A DNA stretch of 64,000 bases. It comes from Bradyrhizobium guangxiense (GTDB taxonomy: Bacteria > Pseudomonadota > Alphaproteobacteria > Rhizobiales > Xanthobacteraceae). This document shows, piece after piece, positions 2 to 23,246 of this stretch; the stretch's first letter is position 1, and each line of letters begins with the position of its first letter. The translations under genes were made by a program, and so were the position numbers. The notes under the pieces were generated by a model, which saw only the letters and a program-made list of their open reading frames with translations, was not told the DNA's origin and did no database searches. The stretch lies in NCBI RefSeq assembly GCF_004114915.1, contig NZ_CP022219.1, forward strand, positions 2,076,501 to 2,140,500, written 5' to 3'.

Positions 2-370
2 TTTGCCGAGCTCCTGGCCCGGGTCGAGGTGCTGTCGCGCCGCCGCGGCGGACCTGCCGAGGACACGCTCTACCGTGTCGGCGATCTCGAGCTCGACCGG
101 CTCTCCCATCGCGTCGCCCGCGGCAAGGACGAGTTGACGCTGCAGCCGCGCGAATTCCGCCTGCTCGAATACCTGATGAAGCATGCCGGCCAGGTGGTGA
201 CGCGCACCATGCTGCTCGAGAACGTCTGGGATTACCATTTCGATCCGCAGACCAACGTGATCGACGTGCACATCTCGCGGCTGCGCTCCAAGATCGACAA
301 GGGCTTCGAGCGGCCGCTGCTGCACACGATCCGCGGCGCCGGATACATGATCCGTGACGGGATCAGGTAA
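2..370 (+). CDS. OmpR-family response regulator, C-terminal part (5' end outside window)
   Basis: The reading frame is open to the left edge and begins with the end of a receiver domain (FAELLARVEVLSRRR), followed by a complete winged-helix DNA-binding domain of OmpR/PhoB type (motifs LTLQPREFRLLEYLM, DVHISRLRSKID, TIRGAGYMIRDG). It would bind promoter DNA when phosphorylated by a partner kinase. The natural partner is probably the kinase at 21,792, because a copy of the last codons of a response regulator lies right at that kinase start. The 3' end of this gene therefore looks like the left junction of an inserted segment; the protein end GYMIRDGIR is preserved. A strong terminator follows. 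The family is certain; the target genes are unknown. Confidence 0.93.
   Translation, partial: FAELLARVEVLSRRRGGPAEDTLYRVGDLELDRLSHRVARGKDELTLQPREFRLLEYLMKHAGQVVTRTMLLENVWDYHFDPQTNVIDVHISRLRSKIDKGFERPLLHTIRGAGYMIRDGIR
341..360. repeat. Left copy of 20-bp direct repeat (putative attL)
   Basis: GGATACATGATCCGTGACGG lies inside the last codons of the response regulator gene and recurs without mismatch at 21,779-21,798. The next ten bases match at seven of ten positions, and both versions encode the same peptide end (GYMIRDGIR, stop). The differences are synonymous, as expected when an integrating element brings its own copy of a gene end and restores the reading frame. Confidence 0.7.
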
Positions 371-456
371 GAAACGGAATCTATTGGGATTTTTCAGGTG
401 CTTTGATTCTTGATTGCCAGATTCTCACCGCTTCGTTGGGCCGCGCGTTCAAAATA

Positions 457-481
457 AAAGCCCCGCCCTAAGCGGGGCTTT
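457..481 (+). terminator. Rho-independent terminator after the response regulator
   Basis: A perfect 10-bp stem, AAAGCCCCGC (457-466) and GCGGGGCTTT (472-481), with a 5-base loop. It lies about 90 bases after the regulator stop. With A-rich and T-rich flanks it could act in both directions, stopping also the short minus-strand gene at 620-742. Confidence 0.8.
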
Positions 482-619
482 CTGCAGTCGGCTTCCGGGC
501 CTCAGGTAACGCTTCAAGCCACGCTCTCAAATCCTGCGGCTGCTTGGCCGTTCACGGTCGAGCTGGGATCATCTCACCGCGATCTCCGGACCTTACGCCT
601 CGCGAGCGACTTGGCCGCC

Positions 620-742
620 TCAGAGACGTACGCCGGTCGTGGCAAACGCATGAGCGACAGGCTCCTGGACCCGATTCAAGAGCGTCATTCCCGCAGCTGC
701 GATCACCAGGGACGCGACGCAGCCAAGAAGAAATGCCTTCAT
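620..742 (-). CDS. Small secreted or membrane protein, 40 residues
   Basis: A 40-codon frame begins with ATG at 742, eight bases after a strong Shine-Dalgarno sequence (GGGAGG). The product begins MKAFLLGCVASLVIAAAG, a hydrophobic stretch that could be an uncleaved signal anchor, followed by a short polar tail ending GVRL. I do not recognise a family; short proteins of this build are common in Bradyrhizobium. It reads toward the terminator at 457-481. The start is supported by the ribosome binding site and the membrane-like composition, the function is unknown. Confidence 0.5.
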   Translation of the reverse strand: MKAFLLGCVASLVIAAAGMTLLNRVQEPVAHAFATTGVRL

Positions 743-980
743 CCGCAGCCTCCCGTACAAGATATCCAATGTTTATACGATACGGCCAGCGGCGAGCAAC
801 TCGTTGGTTGCGTCAGAGCACGAGCGATCTCAAGGGCTCTTGAAGATCGGGTCAGCAGAGAACGCGTTGCCCATCAGGCCAAGAGACTTGAGCGCGACAC
901 GTAAGGTCAGTCTGTCGCGGCTCACCTGCCGGAACCCAAGCGGAGGCAACTCGTTTGGTCCGTGAACCGGAGGAACGAAC

Positions 981-1241
981 GTGAAATTGCTGACGACGAG
1001 TTTGTGCCTTGCAGCACTCTGCCTCTTTGAGAACGCCTCCGCCCAGCCCGCGCAATCCAACTCATCTGCCACGCAAACTGCTCCGGAGGAGAAGGGCCAG
1101 CCCCAACCGCAAGGCTGGACCGGTCCGATCAATACCGGTTCGGGTGGCGCGCCCGCCGAAAGTCCCCAGGGGCAGAGTCCGCCGGGAATGCAGCCCGCGC
1201 CTGAAGGATCATCCAAGGTCACGACGGCACCAGCGAAGTAG
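981..1241 (+). CDS. Small secreted proline/glutamine-rich protein
   Basis: An 86-residue protein from a GTG start seven bases after GGAGG. Residues 1-21 form a signal peptide (MKLLTTSLCLAALCLFENASA, cleaved before QPAQ). The mature part is low-complexity, rich in Pro, Gln, Gly and Ser, with no cysteine or catalytic pattern. It precedes the WD40-cytochrome gene by about 70 bases in the same direction and may be co-transcribed. No family is recognised; it is probably a periplasmic or cell-envelope protein. Confidence 0.6.
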   Translation: MKLLTTSLCLAALCLFENASAQPAQSNSSATQTAPEEKGQPQPQGWTGPINTGSGGAPAESPQGQSPPGMQPAPEGSSKVTTAPAK

Positions 1242-1313
1242 ATCGGATATTCATCTCCGCCGGCCGTTCTGGCAATCTCCAGGGCGTGAACGCGACCAGG
1301 GCGGTGACGGGCA

Positions 1314-2606
1314 ATGAGGTTACCTTTCTGCGCAGTTGGCGCCGCAGTCCTGTGGGTCATGTCCCCAGTATCGGTATCGACAGTGCACGCTGACATGGCG
1401 GGACACGGCGGACCCGTTCGGGCGCTCGCTGTTTCTCCCGATGGGAACGGCCTGTTGTCCGGCAGCTTCGATACGGCAGCCATTCGCTGGTCGCTGGAGA
1501 CGGACACGGCGGAGCAAGTGCTGCGGTACCATGCGGATGCCGTCAACGCGGTCGCCTTTCTCAAGGACGGCCGCATCGTCACGGCCGGGGCCGATGCACG
1601 GATTGCTGTTTGGATGACGGGCCGGCCGCAGCCGGAGCGAGTGTTCGAGGGACATGTCGGCCCAATTGTCGCGCTCGCGGTCTCTCCCGACGGCGCATGT
1701 CTCGCATCGGCGTCATGGGATCGGACAGTGCGGTTGTGGTCGCTGTCGGACGGGACCTCGCGCGTGCTGGAAGGGCATTCACAGAACGTCAACGGCGTCG
1801 CATTCTCGCCGGACGGCAAGTCACTCGTGAGCGTCGGCTATGATCTGACCTTGCGCATCTGGCACTTGCCTGACAGCAAGCCCGATATCATCACCTTGCC
1901 GGCGCCGCTCAACGCTGTGGCCGTGGCGCCGGACGGCGAAATCGTCACGGGTGCTGTCGATGGCATGCTGCGCATGCTGACTGCGGACGGCAAGATCAGC
2001 GGCGAGGTTGCGGCCGTCACGACACCGGTGGTAGCCGTGACGATCTCGGCGGACGGTACGTTGATTGCTGCGGCCGGCATCGGCGGCACCGTCGCGATCG
2101 TCGACCGCAAGTCGCGCAGCCTGCTGCGTACGTTGATCGGGCCGGGGCTGCCGGTCTGGTCGGTAGCTTTCCTTTCATATCGCGAGACGCTGATCACGGG
2201 TGGTGCGGACGGCAAGATCCGGCGCTGGAATGCGCGCACGGGCGAGCCGAACACTGTCCCGTCCGGCAAATCCGCCGATCCGCTCGCGGCCTATGCTGGC
2301 GACCACGGGGCGGAGGTGTTTCGCGCGTGCGTTGCCTGTCACACGCTGTCTGACAAGGAGGGCCAGCGTGCGGGACCGACGCTTGCGGGACTGTATGGCC
2401 GCAGGATCGCATCGCTTCCGGATTATCGCTTTTCCGACGCGCTGAAGACGATGGACATCGTCTGGACGCCGGAGACGGTCGCAAAGCTGTTCGAAGTCGG
2501 ACCGAACAGCTATACGCCCGGGACGAAGATGCCGGAGCAGCGCATCGGTTCAGCCGAGGACCGCCGTGCATTGACCGACTTCATTGGCCGCGCAACGTCG
2601 CGATAG
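1314..2606 (+). CDS. Periplasmic WD40-repeat protein fused to a cytochrome c domain
   Basis: A 430-residue exported protein. Residues 1-26 are a signal peptide. About residues 28-320 hold WD40 repeats with recurring blade motifs (AVSPDG, IRWS, VRLWS, LRIWHL, IRRWNA), enough for one beta-propeller. The C-terminus is a single-haem cytochrome c domain with CVACH at residues 339-343 and a likely distal Met at 406 (GTKMPEQ). The propeller would provide a docking surface and the haem would pass electrons. Its place beside the formate dehydrogenase genes suggests a periplasmic electron-transfer role, which is inference. The fusion is unusual but known among proteobacteria. The start ATG precedes the only plausible signal peptide. 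Confidence 0.85.
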   Translation: MRLPFCAVGAAVLWVMSPVSVSTVHADMAGHGGPVRALAVSPDGNGLLSGSFDTAAIRWSLETDTAEQVLRYHADAVNAVAFLKDGRIVTAGADARIAVWMTGRPQPERVFEGHVGPIVALAVSPDGACLASASWDRTVRLWSLSDGTSRVLEGHSQNVNGVAFSPDGKSLVSVGYDLTLRIWHLPDSKPDIITLPAPLNAVAVAPDGEIVTGAVDGMLRMLTADGKISGEVAAVTTPVVAVTISADGTLIAAAGIGGTVAIVDRKSRSLLRTLIGPGLPVWSVAFLSYRETLITGGADGKIRRWNARTGEPNTVPSGKSADPLAAYAGDHGAEVFRACVACHTLSDKEGQRAGPTLAGLYGRRIASLPDYRFSDALKTMDIVWTPETVAKLFEVGPNSYTPGTKMPEQRIGSAEDRRALTDFIGRATSR

Positions 2607-2613
2607 CCGCCTC

Positions 2614-2913
2614 TCAGATCGACTCCCAATTGTCCATCGGAAGATCCCTCATCTCCGGATGCTGCTTGAGGATCTGAATGACGTCGATGGTGGGATGCTC
2701 CTTCAGCGCTTCGGCAACGCAGTGATTGACGTATTTCCGGCGCGACAGCCAGGCGATCTTCTTGCCCTTGGCTTCGGCCTTGCAGGCGATGATCGCCTGC
2801 TTCACGGCGGTCTTCTGCGCCTTGGTGAGGGGAGGAGCGGCGGCTTCGGCCGATCCGCCGGCGAGAGCAACCGAGATCATGCACGTCGAGAGAGCTGCGA
2901 TGAAACGAGACAT
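2614..2913 (-). CDS. Small exported hypothetical protein with two Cys
   Basis: A 99-residue protein with a signal peptide (residues 1-25, ending SAEAAA) and a helical, basic mature part with two cysteines (IIACKAEAK, YVNHCVAEAL) that could form a disulfide, plus the C-terminal tail MRDLPMDNWESI. ATG at 2913 follows an AAGGAAG ribosome binding site. It lies just downstream of the polyferredoxin gene on the same strand (33 bases) and is probably in its operon. It resembles short alphaproteobacterial secreted proteins of unknown role. Confidence 0.65.
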   Translation of the reverse strand: MSRFIAALSTCMISVALAGGSAEAAAPPLTKAQKTAVKQAIIACKAEAKGKKIAWLSRRKYVNHCVAEALKEHPTIDVIQILKQHPEMRDLPMDNWESI

Positions 2914-2946
2914 GGTGATGCTTCCTTGGTTTTCGACCTCGCGAAA

Positions 2947-5037
2947 TTATCCGTTGTTGTCCTTGGCCTCGCGCTGGCGCAGATAGTCGTCCGTGGTGCG
3001 CGGCGGCGTTCGTTCGGGAACGCCCTTGAACGGATCGAATTGCTGCTCGCTCGTGACGATGACACGGCAGTCGGCGCACATCCTGAGCGTCTCGATTCGC
3101 TTGTCGCCGGCGGGATACATCCAGTGGCGGCCCTCGAGCTTGGCCACGATGCGATCGATCGTGCTCTTCACGCCGAAAGCCGTGCCGCACCGGACGCAGA
3201 GTGCGGGCTCCTCTTCCTTGAGGATCACGGCTGACGCGCGGGTCGCGCGGAAATCGATCTGCGGCTTGAGGCTGATGACTTTCTCCGGACAGGTGCTCTG
3301 GCACAGGCCACATTGCACGCAGGCGTCCTCGATGAATTTCAGCACCGGGCGGTCGGGATCGTCGCGAAGCGCGCCGGTCGGACAGGCCGAGACGCAGGAG
3401 AGGCACAGCGTGCAGCCGTCCGTATCGACCGTGATCGCGCCGATCGGCGCTCCCGGCGGCAACGCAATCACGGCGACGGGAGTTGGCGCCAGACGGTGCA
3501 GCTCGCTCAGTCCAAATCGCAAGAGGTCGCGCCGCTTGCCGACTGTCTTGAAGGTCGCGGGCGTTGCGACGGCGCCGAGCCGGCCGATCTCCGTCAGATG
3601 CGCGCTGAGCGCATCGGGATCGTCGGTTTCGATGGTGGCGAGGCGGCGGCCGGCAAATCCGAGGCCGCCGAGGATCGCCTCGGCCATGCCGATCGTCTGC
3701 AACAATCCCGTCACGTCGTGGCGCGGCTTTGCCCGCAGCAGGAACCGCACAGCCGATACGCCATAGGCAAACGCGCCGGTGATCGCCTCCAGTCCGAGCT
3801 GCGTGAGCTCGTTGACGGCAAAGGGAAGCACGTTCGCCGGCAGGCCGTTGCCATGTCGGGCGAGCGCCTCGATCAGGGGGGTACCGTGCGGGCTGTCATG
3901 AAAGAGCAGCACAGCATCCGTTCCGCCAGCCGCATGGTAGGCGAGCAGCATGGCTCGAATCTGATGGAGCTGCGTGTCGGCGGGCGGCAGCGTGTAGGAT
4001 GCCGCGCCGGTCGGGCAGGCGGCGGCGCATTGGCCGCAACCCGCGCAGATGTTGGGATCGATTGCAACATGATTGCCGGCGGGGGTGATCGCCCCGGTGG
4101 GGCAGAGGTCGAGGCAGCGATGGCACCCCGTGCGCTCCGAGCGCGAATGCGCGCAGAGACTGGGCGTGACGTCGATATATTTCGGTCTGTCGAAGCTGCC
4201 GACGAGGTCGCGCGCGCTCAGCACGGCGCGCAGCATCGCCGCGGGATCGTTCGGATCCGCGCGAAGGTAGCCGTCGCGCAGCTCGTGGGCAGGAAAGAGC
4301 GGCGTGCCGGCGGAAAGATCGAGCACGATGTCGCAGCGCGAGGTTACCCCACTCCGCGGCGCGTCCTGCATGAAGCGATCGCGCGAGGAGGGGCGAGGAC
4401 GCGCATAATCGTCGATTGCAAGCTCGAAGGCGCCGAAATGCCCCTTCGCGGAGCGGATCGTGCCCTTCACGATCGGGAAGACCGTAGCAGCGGGCGGCAT
4501 CATCTCGCCAATCTGCTTCAGCATCACCGTGACGTCGAGGTGATCGGCAAGCAGGCGGCCGGCCTCGATCGCGGCCTCGTCGCGCCCGTAGATCAGGATC
4601 ACGCCTTTGCTCGACAAGGTGACGAGGGGATAGTCCGGCACCGGGATTGCCGCCGATGCGAGCAGGGCAGCCATCTTTGCACCGGCGCGGGCGCCGTCCC
4701 CGGACCATCCCGCCGTTTCGCGGATGTTGACGAAGCTGATCGGATTAGGCCGTTCGCCGGCCTCCTCCGAGAACTGCGTCGCCTGTTGCGTGCAGGCGAC
4801 CGTCAGCGCGCGCTCGGTCGCGGCGATCTTGCGGAAGTGATCGAGCTCGGCACCGCAGAGATGGCGGAAGCTCCTGATGTCGCTGTTGGAACATCCGCGC
4901 TTGATCGCGGCCATGTCGAGCTGCATCGTGTCTTCGCACGAGCAGATCAGGACGGTCTTCGATGGCTGCTCCAGGTTGATCCCTCCGCCATTCGGACGAC
5001 GGCGGACTCGCGCCGGCCCTTCGCCTCGTATAGACAT
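2947..5037 (-). CDS. Polyferredoxin-type 4Fe-4S protein of the formate dehydrogenase cluster
   Basis: A 696-residue cytoplasmic iron-sulfur protein. Four ferredoxin-type cysteine clusters are visible: CHRCLDLCPTGA, CAGCGQCAAACPTGA, CTLCLSCVSACPTGA and CVQCGLCQSTCPE, each suited to a [4Fe-4S] cluster. Near the C-terminus there is a zinc-ribbon-like pair (CVRCGTAFG and CADCR). The N-terminus (TVLICSCEDTM) and first third resemble heterodisulfide-reductase-like proteins. Proteins of this build accompany membrane formate dehydrogenases in alpha- and betaproteobacteria; a role in electron transfer or in maturing the enzyme is plausible but unproven. The start is uncertain: ATG at 5037 has no Shine-Dalgarno sequence, whereas a CTG codon at 4974 lies six bases after GGAGGG and close to the conserved region. 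Confidence 0.85.
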   Translation of the reverse strand: MSIRGEGPARVRRRPNGGGINLEQPSKTVLICSCEDTMQLDMAAIKRGCSNSDIRSFRHLCGAELDHFRKIAATERALTVACTQQATQFSEEAGERPNPISFVNIRETAGWSGDGARAGAKMAALLASAAIPVPDYPLVTLSSKGVILIYGRDEAAIEAGRLLADHLDVTVMLKQIGEMMPPAATVFPIVKGTIRSAKGHFGAFELAIDDYARPRPSSRDRFMQDAPRSGVTSRCDIVLDLSAGTPLFPAHELRDGYLRADPNDPAAMLRAVLSARDLVGSFDRPKYIDVTPSLCAHSRSERTGCHRCLDLCPTGAITPAGNHVAIDPNICAGCGQCAAACPTGAASYTLPPADTQLHQIRAMLLAYHAAGGTDAVLLFHDSPHGTPLIEALARHGNGLPANVLPFAVNELTQLGLEAITGAFAYGVSAVRFLLRAKPRHDVTGLLQTIGMAEAILGGLGFAGRRLATIETDDPDALSAHLTEIGRLGAVATPATFKTVGKRRDLLRFGLSELHRLAPTPVAVIALPPGAPIGAITVDTDGCTLCLSCVSACPTGALRDDPDRPVLKFIEDACVQCGLCQSTCPEKVISLKPQIDFRATRASAVILKEEEPALCVRCGTAFGVKSTIDRIVAKLEGRHWMYPAGDKRIETLRMCADCRVIVTSEQQFDPFKGVPERTPPRTTDDYLRQREAKDNNG

Positions 5038-5102
5038 TATCGATCGGGAAGAAAAGGAAAGCGGAGGACGACCTGCCGTCGACCCCCATCAGCGAACTGT
5101 CC

Positions 5103-5825
5103 GTGGCGGAACCGATCCACCTGCCGCCGCCGTTCACATTGGTGCGGCTCCGCGAGAGTGGTGACGCTTTTGCCCATGCATGCCGCATTGCACAGAAGAG
5201 TGGCGCCGGGACGCTTGTCTATGTCGGCCGCTTTGACCTCGCTGAGTTCGCGGTGGTGCTCGAGCCGGCCGAGCCGTTACGCAGCGCACGGCGCGCGTTC
5301 TACGCCGGCATGGTCGCGCTCACCGATGCCCTACGCGCCTACGCGCCGCCCAGCAAGCCCATCATGATCGGGTGGCCGGACGCGGTCAGGATCGACGGAG
5401 GCCTGATTGGCGGCGGTCGCTTGGGATGGCCTCTCGCGGCCCCTGAGGAGGAGGTGCCGCCATGGGTGGTGTTCGGCGCGATGATCCGGACGGTGGCGAT
5501 GAACGACGAGCCGGGTGTCCACCCGCTTGCCTCGGCGCTCGACCAGGAGGGCTTTGGCGAGACCGGCGCGGCGCAGATCACCGAGAGCTTTGCCCGGCAC
5601 CTGATGCTGGCATTCGACGGCTGGCGCGCGGACGGCTTTGACGGCGTTGCGCGCGAATATCTCTCCCGGATGCCGCGCGAACGGCAGACCGTCCAGCGCA
5701 TCGACGATCGCGGCGATCTCCTCGCGCGCCGGATTGGGGCGGGCGCGGTCGCACGTCGCGACCTCGTGCGGGCGCTCGCGACCCCATCCTGGCTCGATCC
5801 GGCACTTGGAGGGCCGCGGCTGTGA
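5103..5825 (+). CDS. Biotin/lipoate protein ligase-like protein (formate dehydrogenase accessory)
   Basis: A 240-residue protein starting with GTG. It matches the BPL/LplA/LipB-type family seen in formate dehydrogenase clusters (PPPFTLVRL at the N-terminus; PIMIGWPDAVRIDGGLIGGGRLGW in the middle, read here as PIMIGWPD and IGGGRLGWPL, where ligases keep the nucleotide-binding and catalytic region). The canonical substrates (biotin or lipoyl domains) are not encoded nearby, so the true acceptor may be something else. It opens a run of five genes whose starts overlap the preceding stops, which points to translational coupling. It is divergent from the polyferredoxin gene with only 65 bases between them, so they share a promoter region. 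Confidence 0.72.
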   Translation: MAEPIHLPPPFTLVRLRESGDAFAHACRIAQKSGAGTLVYVGRFDLAEFAVVLEPAEPLRSARRAFYAGMVALTDALRAYAPPSKPIMIGWPDAVRIDGGLIGGGRLGWPLAAPEEEVPPWVVFGAMIRTVAMNDEPGVHPLASALDQEGFGETGAAQITESFARHLMLAFDGWRADGFDGVAREYLSRMPRERQTVQRIDDRGDLLARRIGAGAVARRDLVRALATPSWLDPALGGPRL

Positions 5826-6361
5826 AGCTCCTGCGTACCATCGCGCTCGATCCGTCCGACACGTTCGTGTTTGACGTGGCGGCAGAACCAGGCGAATGGG
5901 CCGTTTCCGGAGCCTTCCGCTTCTGGGATTGCGATGCTGCGTCGCTCGAGGGCAAGGTCCGTGCGGCGTTTCGTGGCGGTTTCCTCGGGGTGCAATCCTG
6001 GGGCTGGTCGACGCTGGCGCAGATCGTTCCAGCGACCGAGGATGATTACCGCAGCCTGGTCGATCTCCTGGCCAGGCAACTCGTCGATCGCTTCGGTGCG
6101 CCGGAGGTGACGACCGCGAGAGCGGCGGCCGAAGACGAGGGGGCGTTCGCGCAATCGCTTTGCAGCCATCCAATCGGCTCGCTCGTTGCCGTGCACCGGG
6201 TCGCGAACGAGGGCGAGGTCCGCGAGTGTTTCCGCCGGCTGCAGCTTCGCGAGGGGCAGCGGCACGGGAAGGCGTTCTCGTTCATGGAAATGGAGGATGA
6301 GGTGGAGCCTGACGGCAGTCTCAGGCTTGCGGATCTCGGCCGGGGACCAGCCGTCAGATGA
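5822..6361 (+). CDS. DUF6505 family protein
   Basis: A 179-residue cytoplasmic protein whose GTGA start overlaps the stop of the ligase-like gene by four bases. The N-terminus (KLLRTIALDPSDTFVFD) and the middle (FRGGFLGVQSWGWSTLAQIV) fit the DUF6505 family, which occurs with formate dehydrogenase genes. No catalytic motif or metal site is evident. Position within the coupled operon suggests a part in assembling or supplying cofactor to the dehydrogenase; this is inference from context. Confidence 0.7.
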   Translation: MKLLRTIALDPSDTFVFDVAAEPGEWAVSGAFRFWDCDAASLEGKVRAAFRGGFLGVQSWGWSTLAQIVPATEDDYRSLVDLLARQLVDRFGAPEVTTARAAAEDEGAFAQSLCSHPIGSLVAVHRVANEGEVRECFRRLQLREGQRHGKAFSFMEMEDEVEPDGSLRLADLGRGPAVR

Positions 6362-7365
6362 ACGATTTCTGGTTCGCCTGCGGCCATCATCTGCTCGATC
6401 TCGACGAGAGCGGCGGGCTGCGCGTCACCGACGAGTTCCTCAAGGCCTATTTCGCCCGTCCCGAGCTGATGCCGCCGGAGGATGCGTGCCCGGTCGAACG
6501 CCGCCTGCACCGCGGACTGCTCGCCAATCCGCGTCAGTCGGTCGGCGCGAACGAAATTGCGGGGATTGCCGATCCCGACGCGCGGGAGAACTGGCAGTTC
6601 ATGCTGGCGTTTCGCGACCTGCTGTTGCGGCATCCAACGCTCGAAGCCGCTTATCTTGCGTCCGTGCGATCCGGCGCGAGTGACCTGCCGCCGCTGTTCG
6701 TCAACCAGCTCGTTCACGTCATCCTGCGCAATGCACTCGACGGCTGTGACGATTCGCTCGTGCTGCGCGCGGCCGAGCTGTTCTTCCGGATCCAGCGGGT
6801 CCTGCCGCATGAACAAGCCGTGCTGCTCGGCGACGAGGAAATCGTCGGCGGCCGGAATCCGACCCCCGTTCTCTCCCTGATGTCGATGCTGGGAGCCACC
6901 ACCGATGCGGTGGTCGACGTGTTGAGCGAAGAGAATGCCGGGGCATATTGGCAGCGCAGCGACCAGTTCGATATGGCCCTCGATCTCTCGGCTGGCGGAC
7001 GCGGACCGGCCGCGCTGGCGCAGGGAATGACGCGCTGGATCGCCCACCTGCTCGGCATCGACGTCATGATCGAGCCGTTGCGCGCCTTGCAGGGCGAAAG
7101 GCTTACTTGGTACGTCGGGCTCGATGCCGACTCCACCCGGCTCGGCGACTGCCTCTGGCACGGCGAGGAGCTCGACCAGCGCAGTGCCGATCGGGTGCTC
7201 GCCCTGTTCCGGCTGACCTTTGCGGATTCAAGCCGCGCGCTTGACGATGTCAGGGACGAGCCCGTCTACCTGATCTTGTCGATGACGGCGGACCAGAAGC
7301 TCCGGTTGAAGCCGCAGAACTTGCTGACCGGGCTGCCGGTGAAGGGGCTGGAGATGGTGACATGA
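6358..7365 (+). CDS. DUF6352 family protein
   Basis: A 335-residue protein, ATG overlapping the previous stop by four bases. The opening MNDFWFACGHHLLDLDESG and the segment YFARPELMPPEDACPVE match the DUF6352 family, found next to formate dehydrogenases. It is mostly helical, without signal peptide or membrane segment. A conserved N-terminal Cys-Gly-His-His could bind metal, but that is a guess. As the central gene of the coupled operon it probably acts with its neighbours in enzyme maturation. Confidence 0.72.
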   Translation: MNDFWFACGHHLLDLDESGGLRVTDEFLKAYFARPELMPPEDACPVERRLHRGLLANPRQSVGANEIAGIADPDARENWQFMLAFRDLLLRHPTLEAAYLASVRSGASDLPPLFVNQLVHVILRNALDGCDDSLVLRAAELFFRIQRVLPHEQAVLLGDEEIVGGRNPTPVLSLMSMLGATTDAVVDVLSEENAGAYWQRSDQFDMALDLSAGGRGPAALAQGMTRWIAHLLGIDVMIEPLRALQGERLTWYVGLDADSTRLGDCLWHGEELDQRSADRVLALFRLTFADSSRALDDVRDEPVYLILSMTADQKLRLKPQNLLTGLPVKGLEMVT

Positions 7366-7877
7366 GCCCTGCGGCACGCCCCTTGTTGTCGATTGCGGTT
7401 GGTGTCGTGGTCGAGCGGCGCAAGGCGGATTCGCCCTGGGTGGATTTCGTCTGGCGTGGGATCGCCGTCCTGCCGGACGAGCCGGCCACACACCCTTGGA
7501 CCGTGCTTCGCGAGCAGGACGGCTCGACCCTGTTCTACGCCGGACGTGCGACCGTGGATCTCTATCCATCCGAGACGGCGCGCTATCGGGAGAATCTCGC
7601 CTCCGGCAATCCGAGCATATGGACCGTGCTGTCGCCGTCGGAAGGCGCCTGGCCCTATAGCGTTGCCGCGGTGACCGCCGATCCCGCGGAGGGCGAGAGC
7701 TTTACCGAAGCTGCCGACAATCTTGTCGAGGCCGTGCCGATGCCGGAGGTGCTGCGCGCGGCAATTGAAAGCTTCGTGGCCGAGCACCATGTCGAGCGGG
7801 AATTCGTCAAGCGCAAGCGGCGCCGTGCCGACCCGGAGGCGCTGGCGCGACGTGAACACGAGGGCGGACAGGAATGA
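7362..7877 (+). CDS. DUF3305 domain protein
   Basis: A 171-residue protein with ATGA overlap to the previous gene. The motifs VGVVVERRKADSPWVDFVWR, here visible as VVVERRK and PWVDFVWRG, and later LYPSETARYRENL fit DUF3305, a family nearly always paired with DUF3306 and formate dehydrogenase. The C-terminus is very basic (VKRKRRRADPEALARREHEG), suggesting binding to an acidic partner or nucleic acid. Its biochemical role is unknown. Confidence 0.82.
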   Translation: MSPAARPLLSIAVGVVVERRKADSPWVDFVWRGIAVLPDEPATHPWTVLREQDGSTLFYAGRATVDLYPSETARYRENLASGNPSIWTVLSPSEGAWPYSVAAVTADPAEGESFTEAADNLVEAVPMPEVLRAAIESFVAEHHVEREFVKRKRRRADPEALARREHEGGQE

Positions 7878-8485: not shown

Positions 8486-8489
8486 ACAA

Positions 8490-8562
8490 TAGACCAAAAG
8501 GCTATAGGCTCCGGCTATGGGCGCGATTGACGGTCCGTGGAACCAAGACTACCCTTGGTCTA
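8490..8562. promoter_or_regulatory. Inverted repeats upstream of the torD-fdh genes (putative operator)
   Basis: ACCAAG at 8542-8547 and CTTGGT at 8554-8559 form a symmetric site with a 6-base spacer. A second, wider pair, TAGACCAA at 8490-8497 and TTGGTCTA at 8555-8562, shares its right arm. The region sits between DUF3306 and the chaperone gene and about 60 bases before the latter, so it may be the operator of a promoter for the structural formate dehydrogenase genes. The bound regulator is unknown. Confidence 0.4.
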
Positions 8563-8619
8563 GTGCTTTGTAAGAACTGACAATAATCAGCAGACGGGAC
8601 TCTTGGATGGGAGGTCCAC

Positions 8620-14243: not shown

Positions 14244-14273
14244 CGCGAAGAGCCCGAAAGAGGACGGTCCGCT

Positions 14274-14477: not shown

Positions 14478-14594
14478 GCGTATCTCCGTCTGCCATGCCC
14501 ATCCGACACCATGGATACAACCAGATTGCCTCACGCGATGTGTGCCACCTCACAGTCGACGGTTCCGAGGTCGTCTAAAGCATGATCCGGAAAG

Positions 14595-15962: not shown

Positions 15963-16124
15963 AGCAACCAATCCGAGGGCCCTGGTCGCGATCTTCATCC
16001 TTCTCCTGTTTGGGCCTCATGTCTGCCGCAGATCGAGCGCGGCTCTTGGTCTCAAAAAGTTGCCTGTGAATTCAATATTCCGGGCGGCGCGCGGCAATCT
16101 TCATGCTTATGTTGCAATTATTTC

Positions 16125-16153
16125 TTGCACCAAAACTTTACACAGTATTCAAT
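16125..16153 (+). promoter_or_regulatory. Possible promoter of the ABC importer operon
   Basis: The 279-base AT-rich gap between the TetR gene and the binding-protein gene has no gene. TTGCAC at 16125-16130 and TTCAAT at 16148-16153, 17 bases apart, resemble -35 and -10 elements. The match is modest and is given only as a candidate. Confidence 0.25.
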
Positions 16154-16241
16154 GTTGGAGTAGCGAAAGGTGACGCGATCGACGTTGTGAGTCAGCTTCG
16201 ATCGCCAAGGAACAAGAACATACAAACGGGAGAAGCCAGGG

Positions 16242-17474
16242 ATGCATAGGCTCGTAATTGCTGCGGCGGCAGCGCTGACGATTGTCGGAGGAGCAGCATT
16301 CGCGCAGGAAACCATCAAGTTCGGTTACATCGATCCGCTGTCCGGCGGTGGCGCCAGTGTCGGTGAAGGCGGTCTGAAGACGTTCCAGTATCTCGCCGAC
16401 GAGATCAACGCCAAGGGCGGCATCCTGGGCCGCAAGATCGAGATCCTGCCGCTCGACAACAAAACCAACCCGCAGGAAAGCCTGGTGCAGGCGCAGAAGG
16501 CGATCGACGCCGGCGCCCGCTTCATCACGCAAGGCAACGGCTCGTCGGTCGCCGCAGCGCTGTCCGACTTCGTGACCAAGAACAACACGCGCAATCCCGG
16601 CAAGGAAGTGCTCTACTTCAACTACGCCGCCGTCGATCCGAGCCTGACCAACGAAAAGTGCAGCTACTGGCATTTCCGCTGGGACGCCAGCTCCGACATC
16701 AAGATGGAGGCGCTCACCAGCTATATGAAGGATATTGCCGCGATCAAGAAGGTGTACCTGATCAACCAGGATTACTCCTTCGGCCAGTCGGTGCGCGCCG
16801 ACGCGCGCAAGATGCTGGGCGCCAAGCGTCCCGACATCCAAATCGTCGGTGACGAATTGCATCCGCTGCTGAAAATCACAGACTTCTCGCCTTACGTCGC
16901 CAAGATCAAGGCTTCCGGCGCCGATAGCGTCGTGACCGGCAACTGGGGCCAGGACATCGCACTGCTGCTCAAAGCTGCTGCGGATGCCGGCCTGAAGGTC
17001 AATTGGTACACCTACTATGCCGGCGGCGCTGGCGGTCCGACCGCGATCAAGCAGACCGGTCTCGACCATCAGGTGTTCCAGATCACCGAGGGCTTTGCCA
17101 ATTCTGGCCATCAGCCGGCGATGGACTTCGAAAAGGCTTTCCGCGCCAAGGTCAACATGTCGCTTTGGTATCCGCGTGCGGTCAACGAGATGCGCATGTT
17201 CAAGGCCGCGGCCGAGAAGGCCAACTCGCTCGACCCCGTGAAGGTCGCAGCGGCCCTAGAGGACCTCAAGTTCGAGGTGCTGGATGGTGGAGAGGGCGTC
17301 ATGCGCAAGGACGATCACCAGTTCTTCCAGCCGATCTATATCTCCTCCTTCGGCAAGCTTGCTGCAAACGAGCCGTTCGACGAGGAAGGCACCGGCTGGG
17401 GATGGCACCTGGTTTCCAAGGTCGACACCTCCAAGACGATGGTTCCCACAACCTGTAAGATGACCCGGCCGTAA
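16242..17474 (+). CDS. ABC transporter substrate-binding protein, branched-chain amino acid/amide type
   Basis: A 410-residue periplasmic binding protein of the Peripla_BP_6 (LivK) family. Residues 1-22 are a signal peptide (ending GGAAFAQE). Family motifs include IKFGYIDPLSGGGASVGEGG, here seen as FGYIDPLSG and KGGILGRKIEI, and the two-lobe fold pattern with the hinge after SADSVVTGNWG-like sequence ASGADSVVTGNWG. The ligand cannot be told from sequence; LivK relatives bind amino acids, amides, urea or aromatic acids. It is followed by stem-loops and then by two permease and two ATPase genes, a complete importer. Confidence 0.92.
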   Translation: MHRLVIAAAAALTIVGGAAFAQETIKFGYIDPLSGGGASVGEGGLKTFQYLADEINAKGGILGRKIEILPLDNKTNPQESLVQAQKAIDAGARFITQGNGSSVAAALSDFVTKNNTRNPGKEVLYFNYAAVDPSLTNEKCSYWHFRWDASSDIKMEALTSYMKDIAAIKKVYLINQDYSFGQSVRADARKMLGAKRPDIQIVGDELHPLLKITDFSPYVAKIKASGADSVVTGNWGQDIALLLKAAADAGLKVNWYTYYAGGAGGPTAIKQTGLDHQVFQITEGFANSGHQPAMDFEKAFRAKVNMSLWYPRAVNEMRMFKAAAEKANSLDPVKVAAALEDLKFEVLDGGEGVMRKDDHQFFQPIYISSFGKLAANEPFDEEGTGWGWHLVSKVDTSKTMVPTTCKMTRP

Positions 17475-17521
17475 GCTGGACCAGCTTTGCCTTCCCGCGG
17501 CCGGCAGCGGCTCGCGGGAAG
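17472..17521 (+). promoter_or_regulatory. Stem-loops between the binding-protein and permease genes
   Basis: Two hairpins lie just after the stop codon: AAGCTGG/CCAGCTT (about 17,473-17,487) and CTTCCCGCG (17,491-17,499) with CGCGGGAAG (17,513-17,521). There is no T-run. Such structures often protect the upstream message or stop part of the transcripts, giving more binding protein than permease. Confidence 0.45.
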
Positions 17522-17577
17522 GTCGCTGTTGCGGGTGGACCGACGAGCGTGCCGGCTTTTCTGTCCCGGCCATAGGT

Positions 17578-18534
17578 GTGAATACTGTGCTTGAACTGAT
17601 CGTTATATCGACGCTGAACGGTCTGCTGTTCGGCATGCTGCTGTTCCTGCTGTCGAGCGGCCTGACCGTCATCTTCAGCATGATGGGCGTGCTCAACTTC
17701 GCCCATGCCAGCTTCTACATGCTCGGCGCCTTCTTCGGCTATCAGCTCACGAAATGGATTGGCTTCTGGCCGGCGCTGCTGCTGGCACCGCTGCTGGTCG
17801 GCGCGATCGGCATGGCGGTCGAGCGCTACGGCCTGCGCAATACGCATAAACACGGCCACGTGGCGGAGCTGCTCCTGACATTCGGTCTTGCATTCGCGAT
17901 CGAAGAAATCGTGGCGATGATGTGGGGCAGGAGCCCCGTCGACTATCGCGTGCCGGCGCTGCTCGACTTTCCGGCCTTCACGATCTTCTCGACGAACTAT
18001 CCCGCCTACAAGATCTTCATGCTGGCCGTGTCGATCCTGATCTTCGTCGTGCTGCTGATGGTGCTCAAGCGCACGCGGGTCGGCCTGATCGTTCAAGCCG
18101 CGCTGACGCATCCCCACATGGTGGGGCATCTCGGTCACAATGTCGGACGCATATTCATGCTGGTGTTCGGCGTCGGCAGCGCGCTGGCGGGAATCGCCGG
18201 CGTGATCGCCGGTCCGGCGCTGGTGACGCAGTCCGATATGGCCGCGGCGCTGGGACCGATCCTGTTCGTGGTCATCGTGTTCGGCGGCCTGGGCTCCTTG
18301 CCCGGCGCCTTCATCGCCTCGCTGGTCATCGGCCTGATACAGACCTTTGCGGTGGCGCTGAACGGTTCGCTCGCAAGCGCCTTCGGTCCGCTCGATCCGT
18401 CGGCAGGGCCCTCTGTGCTCACCGACATCTGGAACGTGACCATCGCCCAGGTGGCGCCGATCGTGCCCTACCTGCTGCTGGTGATCATCCTGATCGTACG
18501 CCCCATGGGCCTGATGGGGACGCGCGAGACATGA
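17578..18534 (+). CDS. Branched-chain-type ABC permease, LivH family
   Basis: A 318-residue inner-membrane permease with about eight hydrophobic segments. It shows LivH signatures (LNGLLFGMLLFLLSSGLTVIF and NFAHASFYMLGAFF near the N-terminus; VVIVFGGLGSLPGAFIASLVIG near the C-terminus), the last carrying the EAA-like loop that contacts the ATPases. The GTG start is at 17578. The following permease gene overlaps its stop by four bases. Confidence 0.93.
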   Translation: MNTVLELIVISTLNGLLFGMLLFLLSSGLTVIFSMMGVLNFAHASFYMLGAFFGYQLTKWIGFWPALLLAPLLVGAIGMAVERYGLRNTHKHGHVAELLLTFGLAFAIEEIVAMMWGRSPVDYRVPALLDFPAFTIFSTNYPAYKIFMLAVSILIFVVLLMVLKRTRVGLIVQAALTHPHMVGHLGHNVGRIFMLVFGVGSALAGIAGVIAGPALVTQSDMAAALGPILFVVIVFGGLGSLPGAFIASLVIGLIQTFAVALNGSLASAFGPLDPSAGPSVLTDIWNVTIAQVAPIVPYLLLVIILIVRPMGLMGTRET

Positions 18535-19841
18535 ACGCCAAGACGACATCGACGGCGACATCGACATCGACGATCGCAGAGAAGCCGACGGGCGATGGCC
18601 TGCGTTTCTACGGCATATGGCTTGCCGGCATTGCCGTGCTGATCCTGCTGCCGCTGATCTTCTCCTCCGGCGGCTCGCTGACGTCCTTCAGCCTGATCGG
18701 CATCGCGATCGTGTTCGCGCTGTCCTACAACATCCTGCTCGGCCAGACCGGCCTCTTGTCGTTCGGCCATGCGGTCCATTACGGCCTCGGCGGCTTCGCC
18801 GCGTGCCACATGATGAATGCGGTGGTCTCGCACGGCTGGCCGATCCCGCTGCCGTTCATACCACTGTTCGGTGGGCTCGGCGGCCTGGTCTTCGCGATCA
18901 TCATCGGCTGGCTGATGACCAAGCGGGCCGGCACAGTGTTCTCGATGATCTCGCTCGGCATTGCCGAGCTGGTGGCGTCCTCCTCGCTCATCCTGCGATC
19001 GGTGTTTGGCGGCGAATCCGGGATTTCGACCGACCGCACCGCTCTGCCGAAGCTTCTCGGGTTGAGTTTCGGCCCACAGCTTCAGGTCTATTATCTGATC
19101 GCGTTCTGGCTGGTGATCTCGGCCATCGCGATGTATGCGCTGACGCGGACCCCGCTGGGGCGGATCAGCAATGCGGTGCGGGACAACCCCGAGCGCGTCC
19201 AGTTCATCGGCTATGACCCGCACGTGGTCCGCTATATCGCCTTCTGTTTTGCCGGGTTCTTCGCCGGTGTGGCAGGGGGATTGGCTGCGATCAACTTCGA
19301 GATCGCCAACGCCGCCTATCTCGGCGCGATCCAATCCGGCCTCGTGCTGTTCTCGACCTTCATTGGTGGCGTCGCCTTTTTCTTCGGACCCATCCTGGGT
19401 GCAATCCTCGTGACCTATCTTCAGCTCGGGCTGACCAGCGTCACTGGTGTGTGGCAACTCTATTTCGGCATTATCTTCATCGGCATCGTGATGCTGTCCC
19501 CCGGCGGCATCGCGGGGCTGGTGATGATGCACCGGCCGCTGGTTCGCGCCGGAACTCTGCCGACCGTGGTCCCTTCCTATCTGCTCGCAGCGGTGCCAAC
19601 CATGGCACTGGCTTGCGGCGTGATTCTGGCGATCGAATCGATCGCGCGCACGCATAGCGGTCAGGGCAACCCGATCAACCTGTTCGGCATTGCGTTCAAT
19701 CCGGCGTCGCCGATGACGTGGGCGAGTGCGGCGGTCCTCGTCGCCGGCGGCTTCGTCGTCGCGCGCCTGAGCTGGCGGCGGGTCGGCGATGCTTGGGACC
19801 GCGCGGCGACGGTCGCACGCGACCGGGGGGATTTGGCATGA
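18531..19841 (+). CDS. Branched-chain-type ABC permease, LivM family
   Basis: A 436-residue inner-membrane permease of the LivM family. It starts with a Thr/Ser-rich cytoplasmic segment and then has about ten membrane helices. Signatures are LSYNILLGQTGLLSFGHAVHYG, seen as LLGQTGLLSFGHA, and GRISNAVRDNPERVQFIGYD. The C-terminus is longer than usual by about 100 residues and adds one more membrane segment. ATG at 18531 overlaps the LivH stop; its own stop overlaps the next ATG by four bases. Confidence 0.93.
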   Translation: MNAKTTSTATSTSTIAEKPTGDGLRFYGIWLAGIAVLILLPLIFSSGGSLTSFSLIGIAIVFALSYNILLGQTGLLSFGHAVHYGLGGFAACHMMNAVVSHGWPIPLPFIPLFGGLGGLVFAIIIGWLMTKRAGTVFSMISLGIAELVASSSLILRSVFGGESGISTDRTALPKLLGLSFGPQLQVYYLIAFWLVISAIAMYALTRTPLGRISNAVRDNPERVQFIGYDPHVVRYIAFCFAGFFAGVAGGLAAINFEIANAAYLGAIQSGLVLFSTFIGGVAFFFGPILGAILVTYLQLGLTSVTGVWQLYFGIIFIGIVMLSPGGIAGLVMMHRPLVRAGTLPTVVPSYLLAAVPTMALACGVILAIESIARTHSGQGNPINLFGIAFNPASPMTWASAAVLVAGGFVVARLSWRRVGDAWDRAATVARDRGDLA

Positions 19842-20587
19842 CGGCAGCGATCGAAGTCCGCGCTGTCGAAAAGCGCTTTGGCAATGTCGGCATCATCCGC
19901 GATCTCAATCTCAGTGTCGCGCAAGGTGAGCGTCACGCCATCATCGGTCCGAACGGTGCCGGCAAGTCGACGACGTTCAATCTCATCAGCGGTCATATCA
20001 AGCCCACCTCGGGCGAGGTGAGGCTGAACGGCGATGTGATCTCCGGCATGAGGCCGTTCGAGATCAACCGGCGTGGCCTGTCGCGGTCGTTCCAGGTCAC
20101 CAACGTGTTCGCGCGCATGTCGGTCTGGGAGAACGTCCGTTGTGCGGTGCTGTGGGCGACGGGTCACCGTTACGCCTTCTGGAAGAACGTCGATAGCCTG
20201 CCGGAAGTGCGCGAGCGGACCGCGCAGATCCTCGACGACATCCATCTGACCCATCGTCGCGATGTTCCGGCCGGCTTGTTGACCTACGCCGAGCAGCGCG
20301 AGCTCGAGATCGGCATCACCATCGCCAGCGGTGCGACCGTCGTGATGCTGGACGAACCCACGGCGGGCATGAGTCACGCCGAGACCGACCGCGCGGTGTC
20401 CCTGATCCGGCGCCTGACCGAGGGCAAGACCCTGGTCATCGTCGAGCACGACATGAGTGTCGTGTTCGGCCTGGCCGACCGCATTTCGGTGCTGGTCTAC
20501 GGCCACATCATCGCTTCCGGCACACCGGAAGAGATCAGGCGCGACCCGAAAGTCAAGGAAGCCTATCTCGGCGAGGAGGCGCACTGA
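19838..20587 (+). CDS. ABC transporter ATP-binding protein, LivG family
   Basis: A 249-residue ATPase. Walker A is GPNGAGKST at residues 41-49, the family Q-loop is SRSFQVTNVF, the signature region is LLTYAEQRELEIG (a degenerate form of LSGGQ, common in LivG proteins), Walker B is VVMLDEPTAGM and the switch His is in IVEHDM. It works as a heterodimer with the next gene product to drive import. The start overlaps the permease stop (ATGA). Confidence 0.94.
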   Translation: MTAAIEVRAVEKRFGNVGIIRDLNLSVAQGERHAIIGPNGAGKSTTFNLISGHIKPTSGEVRLNGDVISGMRPFEINRRGLSRSFQVTNVFARMSVWENVRCAVLWATGHRYAFWKNVDSLPEVRERTAQILDDIHLTHRRDVPAGLLTYAEQRELEIGITIASGATVVMLDEPTAGMSHAETDRAVSLIRRLTEGKTLVIVEHDMSVVFGLADRISVLVYGHIIASGTPEEIRRDPKVKEAYLGEEAH

Positions 20588-21282
20588 TGCTCGAGGTCAG
20601 GGACCTGCACGCCTATTATGGCAAGAGCCACATTCTCCAGGGTGTCGATCTCGACGTTGCTGCGGGCGAGGTCGTCAGCCTGCTCGGTCGCAACGGCGTC
20701 GGACGTTCGACCACGGTCAAGGCGATCATGGGCGAGGTTGCTCCGCAAGGCACGATCCGCTTCAAAGGCAAGGACATTGCCGGGCTGCCGAGCTACAGGA
20801 TCGCGCGCCTCGGTCTCGGCTATGTGCCGGAGCATCGGGACATCTTTCCGAGTCTGACGGTCCGCCAGAATCTGCTCCTCGGCATCAAGGATACGCGACG
20901 TCCCGGCAAATGGCAGCTTCAGGACATGCTCGACATGTTTCCGAATCTTGCCGCGCGGGCCGATACGCCTGCAGGGGTGCTGTCGGGCGGCGAGAAGCAA
21001 ATGCTCACGACTTGCCGGACCTTGATGGGCGATCCCGATCTCATCATGATCGACGAGCCCACCGAAGGTCTTGCCCCGTTGATCGTACAGCAGGTCGGCG
21101 ATCTCATCGCCCGCATTGCGCAGGCCGGCGTCGCGATTCTGCTCGTCGAGCAGAAGCTGTCGATTGCGATGAAGATCTCCAACCGCGTTTACGTCATGGG
21201 GCACGGTCGTGTCGTCTTCGAAGGTACGCCCGAGCAATTGAGGTCAAACAGCAGCGTTCGCGCGCAATGGCTGGAAGTGTGA
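20587..21282 (+). CDS. ABC transporter ATP-binding protein, LivF family, with Arg in Walker A
   Basis: A 231-residue ATPase paired with LivG. The P-loop reads GRNGVGRST, with Arg where the catalytic Lys normally stands. Other motifs are intact: signature LSGGEKQM, Walker B LIMIDEPTEGL, and the switch region ILLVEQKL, where Gln follows Glu as is usual for LivF. The start shares a TGATG overlap with the LivG stop. The variant P-loop, which I recall in other bradyrhizobial LivF-like proteins, suggests an asymmetric transporter in which the LivG site does most of the hydrolysis. Confidence 0.93.
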   Translation: MLEVRDLHAYYGKSHILQGVDLDVAAGEVVSLLGRNGVGRSTTVKAIMGEVAPQGTIRFKGKDIAGLPSYRIARLGLGYVPEHRDIFPSLTVRQNLLLGIKDTRRPGKWQLQDMLDMFPNLAARADTPAGVLSGGEKQMLTTCRTLMGDPDLIMIDEPTEGLAPLIVQQVGDLIARIAQAGVAILLVEQKLSIAMKISNRVYVMGHGRVVFEGTPEQLRSNSSVRAQWLEV

Positions 21283-21778
21283 GGGCGCGCCCCGGTATCG
21301 CGCATCCCATGTAGGACGCAGATCCAGGTATCCGAGACCAGGACCAACGTCCCGGTGAAGGCCGGCATTGGAGCTGGGCAGCTTCCCGGCCGGACGAAAT
21401 CTCATCAGCGGCCTGCCGAGGTGTTTTAAACCGGCGGATTCGACGGCATTGCGCTCGTTGCCGCCGACAAGGGCTTCCGCCTGAAGCGGCTGATGTTCCT
21501 CAGCGTGGTCGGGAGGAAAGGCCCACAGCCGATCACGGCTCCCGCAGGCTTCCCCCGTCTCCATGGACCCAGCTTGCGGGGAATTAACTTGGTTCCGATC
21601 GGGTGCCCCTTTAACGTTCCTCGTCCGCTTATCACCCGTCGTCACGGATGCTTTGCACGTTCCTCGTTCCACAAGCGACCTGCGCGCAGGTGTGACAATT
21701 TACGAGGCTATGTTATTGTAAACAAAGCGAAATACGTTGAGTTACCATGCACGTGATGGCAGGCGCGTTGTTGAAATT
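21283..21778. other. Non-coding right end of the putative island
   Basis: About 500 bases with no convincing gene. Short open frames here lack ribosome binding sites and family resemblance; a stretch near 21,430-21,560 has coding-like composition in more than one frame and may be the remnant of a lost gene. The last 140 bases (from about 21,640) are clearly richer in A and T than the surroundings and end at the direct repeat. Confidence 0.4.
21692..21719 (+). promoter_or_regulatory. Candidate promoter for the sensor kinase and glnE
   Basis: GTGACA (21,692-21,697) and TATTGT (21,714-21,719) with a 16-base spacer match five and four positions of the standard -35 and -10 elements. It lies in the AT-rich end of the insert, 73 bases before the kinase start. 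It is the best candidate I see for reading the kinase and glnE after separation from the original promoter. Confidence 0.25.
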
Positions 21779-21798
21779 GGATACATGATCCGTGACGG
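21779..21798. repeat. Right copy of 20-bp direct repeat (putative attR)
   Basis: This is identical to 341-360. It encodes, with the next ten bases, the response-regulator ending GYMIRDGIR followed by TAA at 21,806-21,808, although no regulator gene precedes it here. The sensor kinase GTG start at 21,792 is inside the repeat. This is the expected scar of an insertion into an overlapping regulator-kinase pair. Confidence 0.7.
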
Positions 21799-23246
21799 CA
21801 TTCGGTAAACTCGTCCGCACCACGGCGTTCCGGCTGACGCTGGTCTATCTGCTGCTGTTCGCGATGTTCGCGGCTTCGCTGCTGGCCTATTTCGCCTGGA
21901 ATACGCGGCGGCTGATCACCGAGGAGATCACGCAGACGGTGAATGCCGAGACCTCCGAGATCAGTGAGATCTACGGCCGCCGCGGTCTGCGCAGCCTCGT
22001 GCTCGCGATCGAGTATCGGGCGCTGCGCCCGGGTGCCAACCTCTATCTCGTGACCACGCCGACCGGGCAGGCGATTGCCGGCAATGTCGGCTCGCTGGCG
22101 CCCGGCGTGATGGCGACGCGCGGCTGGTCGGAGACCGCCTACCGGCGCATCGAGGACGCCGACGACCGCGACCATCGTGCGTTGGTGCGCGTCACCGAGC
22201 TCGAGAATGGCTTCCGCCTGCTGATCGGCCGCGACCTTGCCGAGCGGCGGCGGCTGTTCGGCATCGTCGCCAAGGCGGCGCAATGGTCGGTCCTGATCGT
22301 CGTCGTGCTCGGCCTCGGTGGTGGCGTCTTCGTCGCGCGCCGTGTGCTCCGACGCATCGACGCCATGACGGGCACCGCACAGCGGATCATGACCGGCGAT
22401 CTCAGCGAGCGCCTGCCGGTCGGGCGCAGCGGCGACGAGCTCGATCGCCTCGCCGAGAACCTCAACGCCATGCTGGAGCGGATCGAGGCGCTGATGGCGG
22501 GGCTGAAGGAGGTCTCCGACAACATCGCCCATGATCTCAAGACGCCGCTGACGCGCCTGCGCAACCGCGCCGAGGAGGCGTTGGCGAAATCGGGCTGCGA
22601 GGCCGATTACCGGGCGGCGCTGGAGCGTACCATCGAGGAATCCGACGGTCTCATCCGCACCTTCAACGCGCTGCTGATGATTGCGCGCGCCGAATCGGGA
22701 CAAGCGCGCGGCAACATGGATGATTTCGACGCGGCCGACGTAGCCAACGGCATCCACGAGCTCTATGAGCCGCTCGCCGAAGAGGACGGCATGACCCTGA
22801 AGGTGAAGGCCGACCCGACACCGATTCACGCCAACCGCGAATTGATCAGTCAGGCGCTCGCCAATCTGGTCGAGAATGCGATCAAATATGGCAAGCCGGT
22901 CGCGCAGACCGGCGGAACCGTGATCAGCATGGACTCCCGGCAAATCACGATCGAGGCCAGGCGCGAGGGCGAGCATGTGCTGCTCAGCGTCACCGACCGC
23001 GGTCCTGGTATCCCCGAGGCCGATCGCGCGCACGCCGTGGAACGATTCGTGCGGCTGGAAGCGAGCCGCACGCTGCCGGGCTCCGGGCTCGGTCTCAGCC
23101 TCGCCTCGGCGGTTGCGACATTGCATGGTGGTGAATTGAGACTGGCCGACGCCCAGCCCGGTCTTGTCGCCACGCTGGTGCTCCCCGTGCGCGCCGGCGA
23201 CAGGGTTGCTCCGCCAATACCGGATGTGCCACAGAAGGTGGCATGA
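21792..23246 (+). CDS. Sensor histidine kinase (partner of the split-off response regulator)
   Basis: A 484-residue membrane kinase. Membrane segments are at about residues 12-34 and 162-185, with a periplasmic sensor part of about 125 residues between them. A HAMP domain follows, then the H-box around His247 (SDNIAHDLKTPLTRLR), the N-box (LVENAIKYG), and the G-boxes (DRGPGIPE and GSGLGLSL). The GTG start overlaps the remains of a response-regulator gene, so its partner is most likely the regulator at the left edge of the window, now 21 kb away. Its stop overlaps the glnE start (ATGA), so the two are translationally coupled. Confidence 0.93.
   Translation: MTAFGKLVRTTAFRLTLVYLLLFAMFAASLLAYFAWNTRRLITEEITQTVNAETSEISEIYGRRGLRSLVLAIEYRALRPGANLYLVTTPTGQAIAGNVGSLAPGVMATRGWSETAYRRIEDADDRDHRALVRVTELENGFRLLIGRDLAERRRLFGIVAKAAQWSVLIVVVLGLGGGVFVARRVLRRIDAMTGTAQRIMTGDLSERLPVGRSGDELDRLAENLNAMLERIEALMAGLKEVSDNIAHDLKTPLTRLRNRAEEALAKSGCEADYRAALERTIEESDGLIRTFNALLMIARAESGQARGNMDDFDAADVANGIHELYEPLAEEDGMTLKVKADPTPIHANRELISQALANLVENAIKYGKPVAQTGGTVISMDSRQITIEARREGEHVLLSVTDRGPGIPEADRAHAVERFVRLEASRTLPGSGLGLSLASAVATLHGGELRLADAQPGLVATLVLPVRAGDRVAPPIPDVPQKVA

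Follow-up and report, generated by a model that had tools for sequence, protein, structure and literature searches.

Locus and junctions

The DNA considered here is a window of 64,000 nucleotides from Bradyrhizobium guangxiense (assembly GCF_004114915.1, contig NZ_CP022219.1, positions 2,076,501 to 2,140,500). Near its left end, a segment of 21.4 kb separates a response regulator gene from a sensor histidine kinase gene. This segment is very probably a decayed composite genomic island, lodged at an integration hot spot that runs through the genus. In what follows, G-numbers are labels of compared genomes, and G000 is the genome that holds the window.

The C-terminal part of the regulator occupies positions 1–370 (plus strand), the last 10 bases being supplied by the island. 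The whole gene (G000 C1:2076190-2076870), whose start lies upstream of the window, is complete and encodes 226 residues; PF00072 and PF00486 on the whole protein mark it as OmpR-type. The kinase gene (21792–23246, plus strand) encodes HAMP, HisKA and HATPase_c domains, and is parted from the regulator by the island. It is directly followed by glnE (23243–26212, plus strand; NF010706), the native right flank.

The 20-bp sequence GGATACATGATCCGTGACGG is found twice, as exact copies on the plus strand at 341–360 and 21779–21798, and even with 3 mismatches allowed the window holds no further copy. None of 100 dinucleotide shuffles gave a match. The left copy, recognised from the repeat search and from comparison with empty sites, is the core of the left attachment site (attL). 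The right copy (attR) contains the kinase GTG at 21792 together with the 13 nucleotides that precede it. After the left core, the regulator is completed by an island-borne tail, GATCAGGTAA (361–370, plus strand), in place of the native CATTCGGTAA; the encoded end is the same. If reading begins at the last two bases of the core, the sequence is GGGATCAGGTAA on the left and GGCATTCGGTAA on the right, both encoding G-I-R-stop. An earlier note on this DNA, made from the sequence alone, had described a direct repeat at both ends, an identical regulator ending in both copies, and a right core overlapping the kinase GTG upstream of glnE; each of these points holds.

Empty and occupied sites across the genus

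The overlap, junction and integrase searches covered a genus sample of 265 genomes. An empty site was defined by a pattern of 54 bases across the uninterrupted regulator-kinase overlap, with at most 3 mismatches. This direct overlap, for which the earlier note had proposed looking in other Bradyrhizobium genomes, is present in 190 of the 265, although one genome counted as empty (G197, 3 mismatches) looks occupied. The kinase-side junction alone is found in 242. None of the 23 genomes in which the kinase-side half is missing has the full pattern either, which leaves 52 with the kinase junction only; their sites are either occupied or diverged. A stricter pattern of 34 bases for the island-type junction matched 32 of the 265, but G045 among them turned out to be empty. 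Occupancy in the sampled species thus lies between about 12% (31/265, strict pattern) and 21% (52/242), the higher figure also taking in diverged sites. Beyond the genus, the regulator-kinase overlap occurs in 64 of 149 family genomes and in 27 of 47 genera; it is evidently older than the genus. Second copies were seen in two genomes, namely a kinase-side junction in G154 (C157:11948-11994) and an overlap in G016 (C36 and C688), which look like paralogues or assembly contamination.

The inserts of relatives lie at exactly the same site and share both junction types, but differ in content. Where the two cores share a contig and an orientation, the distance between them ranges from about 0.9 kb to about 220 kb: 0.9 kb in G203, 3.4 in G132, 4.1 in G018, 4.5 in G122, 7.1 in G095, G062 and G135, 8.5 in G104, 18.9 in G229, 21.4 in G000, 24.2 in G127, 43.5 in G088, 46.7 in G060, 54.9 in G056, 57.7 in G107, 64.6 in G169, 81 in G159, 91 in G150, 98.8 in G052, 100 in G253, 118 in G206, 172 in G007 and 221 in G165; the interiors were read for some of these bounded islands. 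The mini-island of G203 has 881 bp between its cores, including a short stretch that can be aligned to the integrase-start region described below, and the island of G122 lies at about 6.785 Mb of its contig. It is these empty sites, together with different inserts between the same two kinds of junction, that bear out the earlier proposal of a site-specific element restoring the gene it enters.

Of 39 chosen genomes, 36 yielded a rebuilt regulator end. Among the 30 of these that were read, the tail has 17 spellings, all of which encode G-[I/L/M]-R-stop (G-I-R in 24, G-L-R in 3 and G-M-R in 3). This uniformity supports selection on the peptide but does not measure it, because the search pattern favoured such tails.

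Integrase and right arm

In G104, a 370-residue integrase stretch (PF13356, PF22022, PF00589) adjoins attR; it starts 0.2 kb from the core and is transcribed away from the kinase. As a query, this integrase has matches in 112 of the 265 genomes at an expect value (E) of at most 1e-30. At 57% identity or more there are 20 places, 15 of them open over nearly the full length; the other five (G144, G057, G213, G218 and the second copy in G253) contain stops or are cut. An att core lies beside the integrase, at the gene start, in 19 of the 20, and in 17 it then continues into the kinase start. In G053 and G007 the kinase junction lies 7.4 and 1.9 kb farther on, which fits tandem islands. By comparison, none of 11 examined integrases of 35–39% identity, a part of the distant matches in the 112-genome result, has a core within about 1.5 kb. 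A search aimed outside the genus, in a sample that includes genus members, found the group integrase in none of 296 family genomes at E ≤ 1e-80. One tyrosine-integrase group is associated with this integration site.

The earlier note had stated that no integrase is present. This is right for a working gene: G000 has no match to the group at E ≤ 1e-30. It is wrong in that a degraded remnant persists at 21451–21609 on the minus strand, comprising the first ~14 codons and a piece from residue 301 on, with the middle deleted. At the right end of the island, read on this strand, GAPDRNQVNSPQAG aligns with the integrase start (e.g. MALNSNQVKS), the start-codon position reading GGG, while WAFPPDHAEEHQPLQAEALVGG aligns with integrase residues from 301 onward (E 8e-4). 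At the DNA level, positions 21518–21682 match 7 of the 15 open-integrase loci (best E 3e-26); only 1 of 200 shuffles gave any match at 0.01. These matches indicate that the integrase was once present in the G000 island, and that its start codon and middle have since gone. When 22 right arms are aligned, the integrase-start block falls in one place, less clearly so for the most distant arms. Integrase remnants on the attR side are present in other islands too.

As expected of tyrosine-integrase islands, then, the end repeats correspond to the empty site of relatives, and an integrase lies by one end; the latter is seen in relatives, whereas the window retains the remnant only.

The right arm also carries inverted partial copies of the core. 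In the window this is CATCCGTGACGA (21639–21650, minus strand). For the statistics, 35 right arms were used, namely 29 of the 30 strict-pattern loci (the empty site excluded) and six loci from the integrase search. An inverted copy matching at least 10 of the 12 bases of GATCCGTGACGG lies within 300 bp in 30 of the 35, compared with 1.3% of shuffled arms. Since the right arms share descent, this amounts to conservation and not to 30 independent cases. The inverted copy lies 178–183 bp before the core in 21 arms, 239–246 bp before it in 16, and 129–140 bp before it in five, the window's included. Lying between the core and the start of the integrase gene, the copies may be extra sites for the integrase or for a repressor; the sequence CCGTGACGG is almost a palindrome.

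The G000 island is probably now immobile, since a search of its genome gave no group integrase. It might still be moved by an integrase acting in trans, either from elsewhere in the cell or from a co-resident island of the group: both cores are retained, along with a right arm that has one inverted core copy, and the integrase group is common in the genus. This is nevertheless improbable. Not only does G000 itself lack a group member at the threshold given above, but the usual pair of inverted copies at −180 and −242, found in most related arms, is reduced in the window to a single one at −140.

Cargo and probable composite origin

The island left arm (371–540) aligns with the left island ends of G079, G144 and G229, the alignments continuing past the regulator as far as 533–540. 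It is followed by a formate dehydrogenase block (608–14578, plus strand), identified from Pfam and NCBIfam matches and from colinear blocks elsewhere in relatives. This encodes a WD40 protein, a 4Fe-4S protein (on the minus strand), a biotin/lipoate ligase-like protein, DUF6505, DUF6352, DUF3305 and DUF3306 proteins, a TorD-like chaperone, FdhA (9650–12592, below its cut-offs), and the FDH3 beta (12615–13202; NF038355) and gamma (13299–14243; TIGR01583) subunits. The FdhA frame is open without a selenocysteine cassette, and this candidate was dropped. The next part of the island consists of a TetR-type regulator and a livKHMGF-like transporter of the branched-chain amino-acid type of the ATP-binding cassette family (14655–21285, plus strand), and is common to the same-site islands of G095, G062 and G135. 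The TetR-type protein (14859–15962) has two TetR_N and two TetR_C_24 stretches, which makes it a tandem double regulator beside the transporter genes. A tRNA-Ser (gct) called by ARAGORN at 17747–17841 was taken as spurious; it lies inside a permease gene (17587–18534), and no Rfam family reaches its gathering score there.

These two parts have different relationships. Along its length the TetR-liv part matches, in the same order, the 7.1-kb islands of G095, G062 and G135, at 92.7–93.4% nucleotide identity. At fourfold sites, the identity to G095 is 81–88% for the five transporter genes, 69% for TetR, 76% for glnE and 72% for the kinase. On these values the TetR-liv part is not recent; it could be inherited, or its arrival could slightly postdate the divergence of the flanks. 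The formate dehydrogenase block is colinear, at 85–91% nucleotide identity, with blocks that lie elsewhere in G021, G185, G095, G062 and G056; FdhA relatives (E ≤ 1e-200) are found in 174 of 257 genus genomes. The earlier note had counted it against its proposal if the same formate dehydrogenase genes parted the pair in all related species; this is not so in these five relatives, the ones fetched, where the block has other locations. One neighbourhood holds it in G062 and G095, seen on both sides, and in G056, seen on the right side only, while in G021 and G185 it has other flanks. A block of ~14 kb with nearly constant ends is therefore seen at several chromosomal places among close relatives. 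Its copies in relatives were compared, and terminal repeats were not seen at its ends.

The possibility that the block was cut from a native place 234 kb downstream in G000 was rejected because the place that is occupied in G062 is, in G000, an unbroken frame of 341 residues (C1:2312210-2313235), of which G062 retains a 69-bp piece. With that frame intact, the block seems to have landed independently.

Given that the block does move as an operon-sized unit without visible terminal repeats, one could suppose that no site-specific element was involved at all: the operons would have come by homologous or illegitimate recombination, and the repeat would be a relic of a duplicated regulator end. 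The same junctions with different contents, accompanied by a matching integrase in many genomes, make this scarcely credible, and the association of integrase and site contradicts it.

The G000 insert appears to be composite, an old TetR-liv island plus the 14-kb formate dehydrogenase block. As to how the parts came together, the simplest history we infer is that two elements entered the same site and that the att between them disappeared. Tandem islands, as in G053 and G007, make this plausible; with neither block ends nor an inner att visible, it is a guess. At the boundary of the two blocks no third att core rises above background (best 14/20); around position 14575, AAAGCATGATCCGGAAAGG is similar to a stretch of the core, and also to what we take to be an intergenic repeat of these bacteria. 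Alternatively, both blocks came into G000, or into an ancestor, on one element, of which the 7.1-kb islands are shortened forms. In favour of this, the right part, the integrase remnant and the right arm are common to all, and the G095 island is without most of the left arm. On the other hand, G095 and G062 have the formate dehydrogenase block elsewhere on their chromosomes, and the starting points of the three short islands within the TetR-liv block nearly coincide (14647–14655). Entry as a single element is hence considered unlikely, and a composite insert is preferred.

Pfam and NCBIfam detected no phage structural genes in the G000 insert, its genes being metabolic and transport genes instead. 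Of conjugation genes, one family was tested (PF03135, VirB4/TrbE type): its one match in G000 is on C2, outside the island, and among 20 genomes searched it lies within a bounded island only in G165. Four proteins of three small islands (G122, G132, G018) were tested as defence genes and gave one weak match, which was not believed.

Proposed mechanism

In the proposed mechanism, a tyrosine integrase would recombine the attP of the island with a chromosomal attB, the latter being the overlap of the response regulator gene and its kinase gene. The island's own last codons (G-I-R-stop) would rebuild the regulator at attL, while the duplicated core would retain the kinase start codon and the 13 nucleotides before it at attR. 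Owing to the core duplication and the island-borne tail, both proteins stay whole while the operon is split. The recombination event itself is deduced; what the sequences show are empty sites, both junctions, islands of varied content, a site-linked integrase group, and its remnant in G000.

Several observations weigh against this account. No rebuilt regulator end was found in three of the 39 occupied genomes (G057, G053, G218), and the pattern used for the tail favoured the G-[I/L/M]-R-stop peptide. The broken second integrase copy of G253 has no core in 4.5 kb at up to 6 mismatches. In G144 (C1:3852822/7040702) and G019 (C1:3573190/5787534) the island ends lie megabases apart in opposite orientation, so that simple pairing is impossible, and in several drafts the ends are on different contigs and likewise cannot simply be paired. 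The formate dehydrogenase block shows no ends of its own, nor is an inner att left. Lastly, excision and integration are deduced from sequence comparison. The end positions in G144 and G019 look like a large inversion with one end inside the island.

Consequences for regulator and kinase

The regulator protein is unchanged by the insertion, as is the kinase frame, with 13 nucleotides upstream of its start kept within the core. To judge from the arrangement, what is lost on insertion is the shared promoter and the coupling through the overlap. One weak promoter-like match (21692–21719; 0.2 expected) faces the kinase, and no terminator-like site was found between livF and the kinase in the window.

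Tentatively, we suggest that a conserved sensor kinase may be switched repeatedly by these islands. Insertion would take the kinase out of its operon and its coupling, place it under a right-arm promoter and alter signalling, reversibly on excision; through the inverted core copies, with their fixed spacing, the integrase could control its own gene and possibly also the kinase. If so, signalling would differ between occupied and empty strains, and would revert on excision. Empty sites, islands with an open integrase, decayed islands and tandem islands provide a natural series on what follows when a regulator and its kinase are separated though each remains intact.

Comparison with known systems

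The element is of a known kind, while the regulator-kinase overlap as its site was not found in the literature searched; that search, which included few subscription journals, returned no published description of this integration site. The comparisons below draw on the available parts of the cited papers. The overlap is one more integration site that would escape catalogues based on transfer RNA (tRNA) ends, and it comes from a genus in which mobile DNA has been studied closely.

The dusA-specific islands (PMC4482086) are similar in that a tyrosine-integrase family is linked to a single conserved position within a protein-coding gene, with imperfect direct repeats of ~20 bp, very varied size and content, and a replacement gene end supplied by the island. 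What those islands replace is the 5′ end of a single gene. At the present site two genes overlap; the first receives a new 3′ end from the island, and the core preserves the start of the second. Judged by their site, a regulator-kinase overlap and not dusA, the present islands would not belong to that family.

In the same genus, symbiosis integrative and conjugative elements (ICEs) and tRNA-located islands (PMC9239051, PMC9174649, PMC3927601) likewise have an integrase beside att, several islands per site, and inversions ending in islands. The sites given for Bradyrhizobium symbiosis islands are tRNA genes and ybgC (PMC9239051, PMC9174649), and the island table of B. japonicum USDA6T shows, in the rows available, tRNA-bounded islands only, with none near 6.785 Mb, the coordinate of the G122 island (PMC3927601). 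Mesorhizobium ICEs and integrative and mobilisable elements occupy 16 sites (PMC8627217), comprising tRNA and protein-coding targets such as guaA, with competition for sites and site switching. No regulator-kinase site is described in the available part of that paper, and conjugation genes are the rule there, compared with one bounded island here (G165).

As regards the kinase, a comparable case is prophage HK022, which lies between torT and torS in E. coli (PMC6814406): it too adjoins a sensor kinase gene and cuts it off from the native upstream region, and torS was shown to be driven by a phage promoter. The elements described here differ from HK022 in being islands, in parting the kinase from its own regulator, and in being known from sequence alone. 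HK022 is the closest precedent for a possible effect on the kinase.

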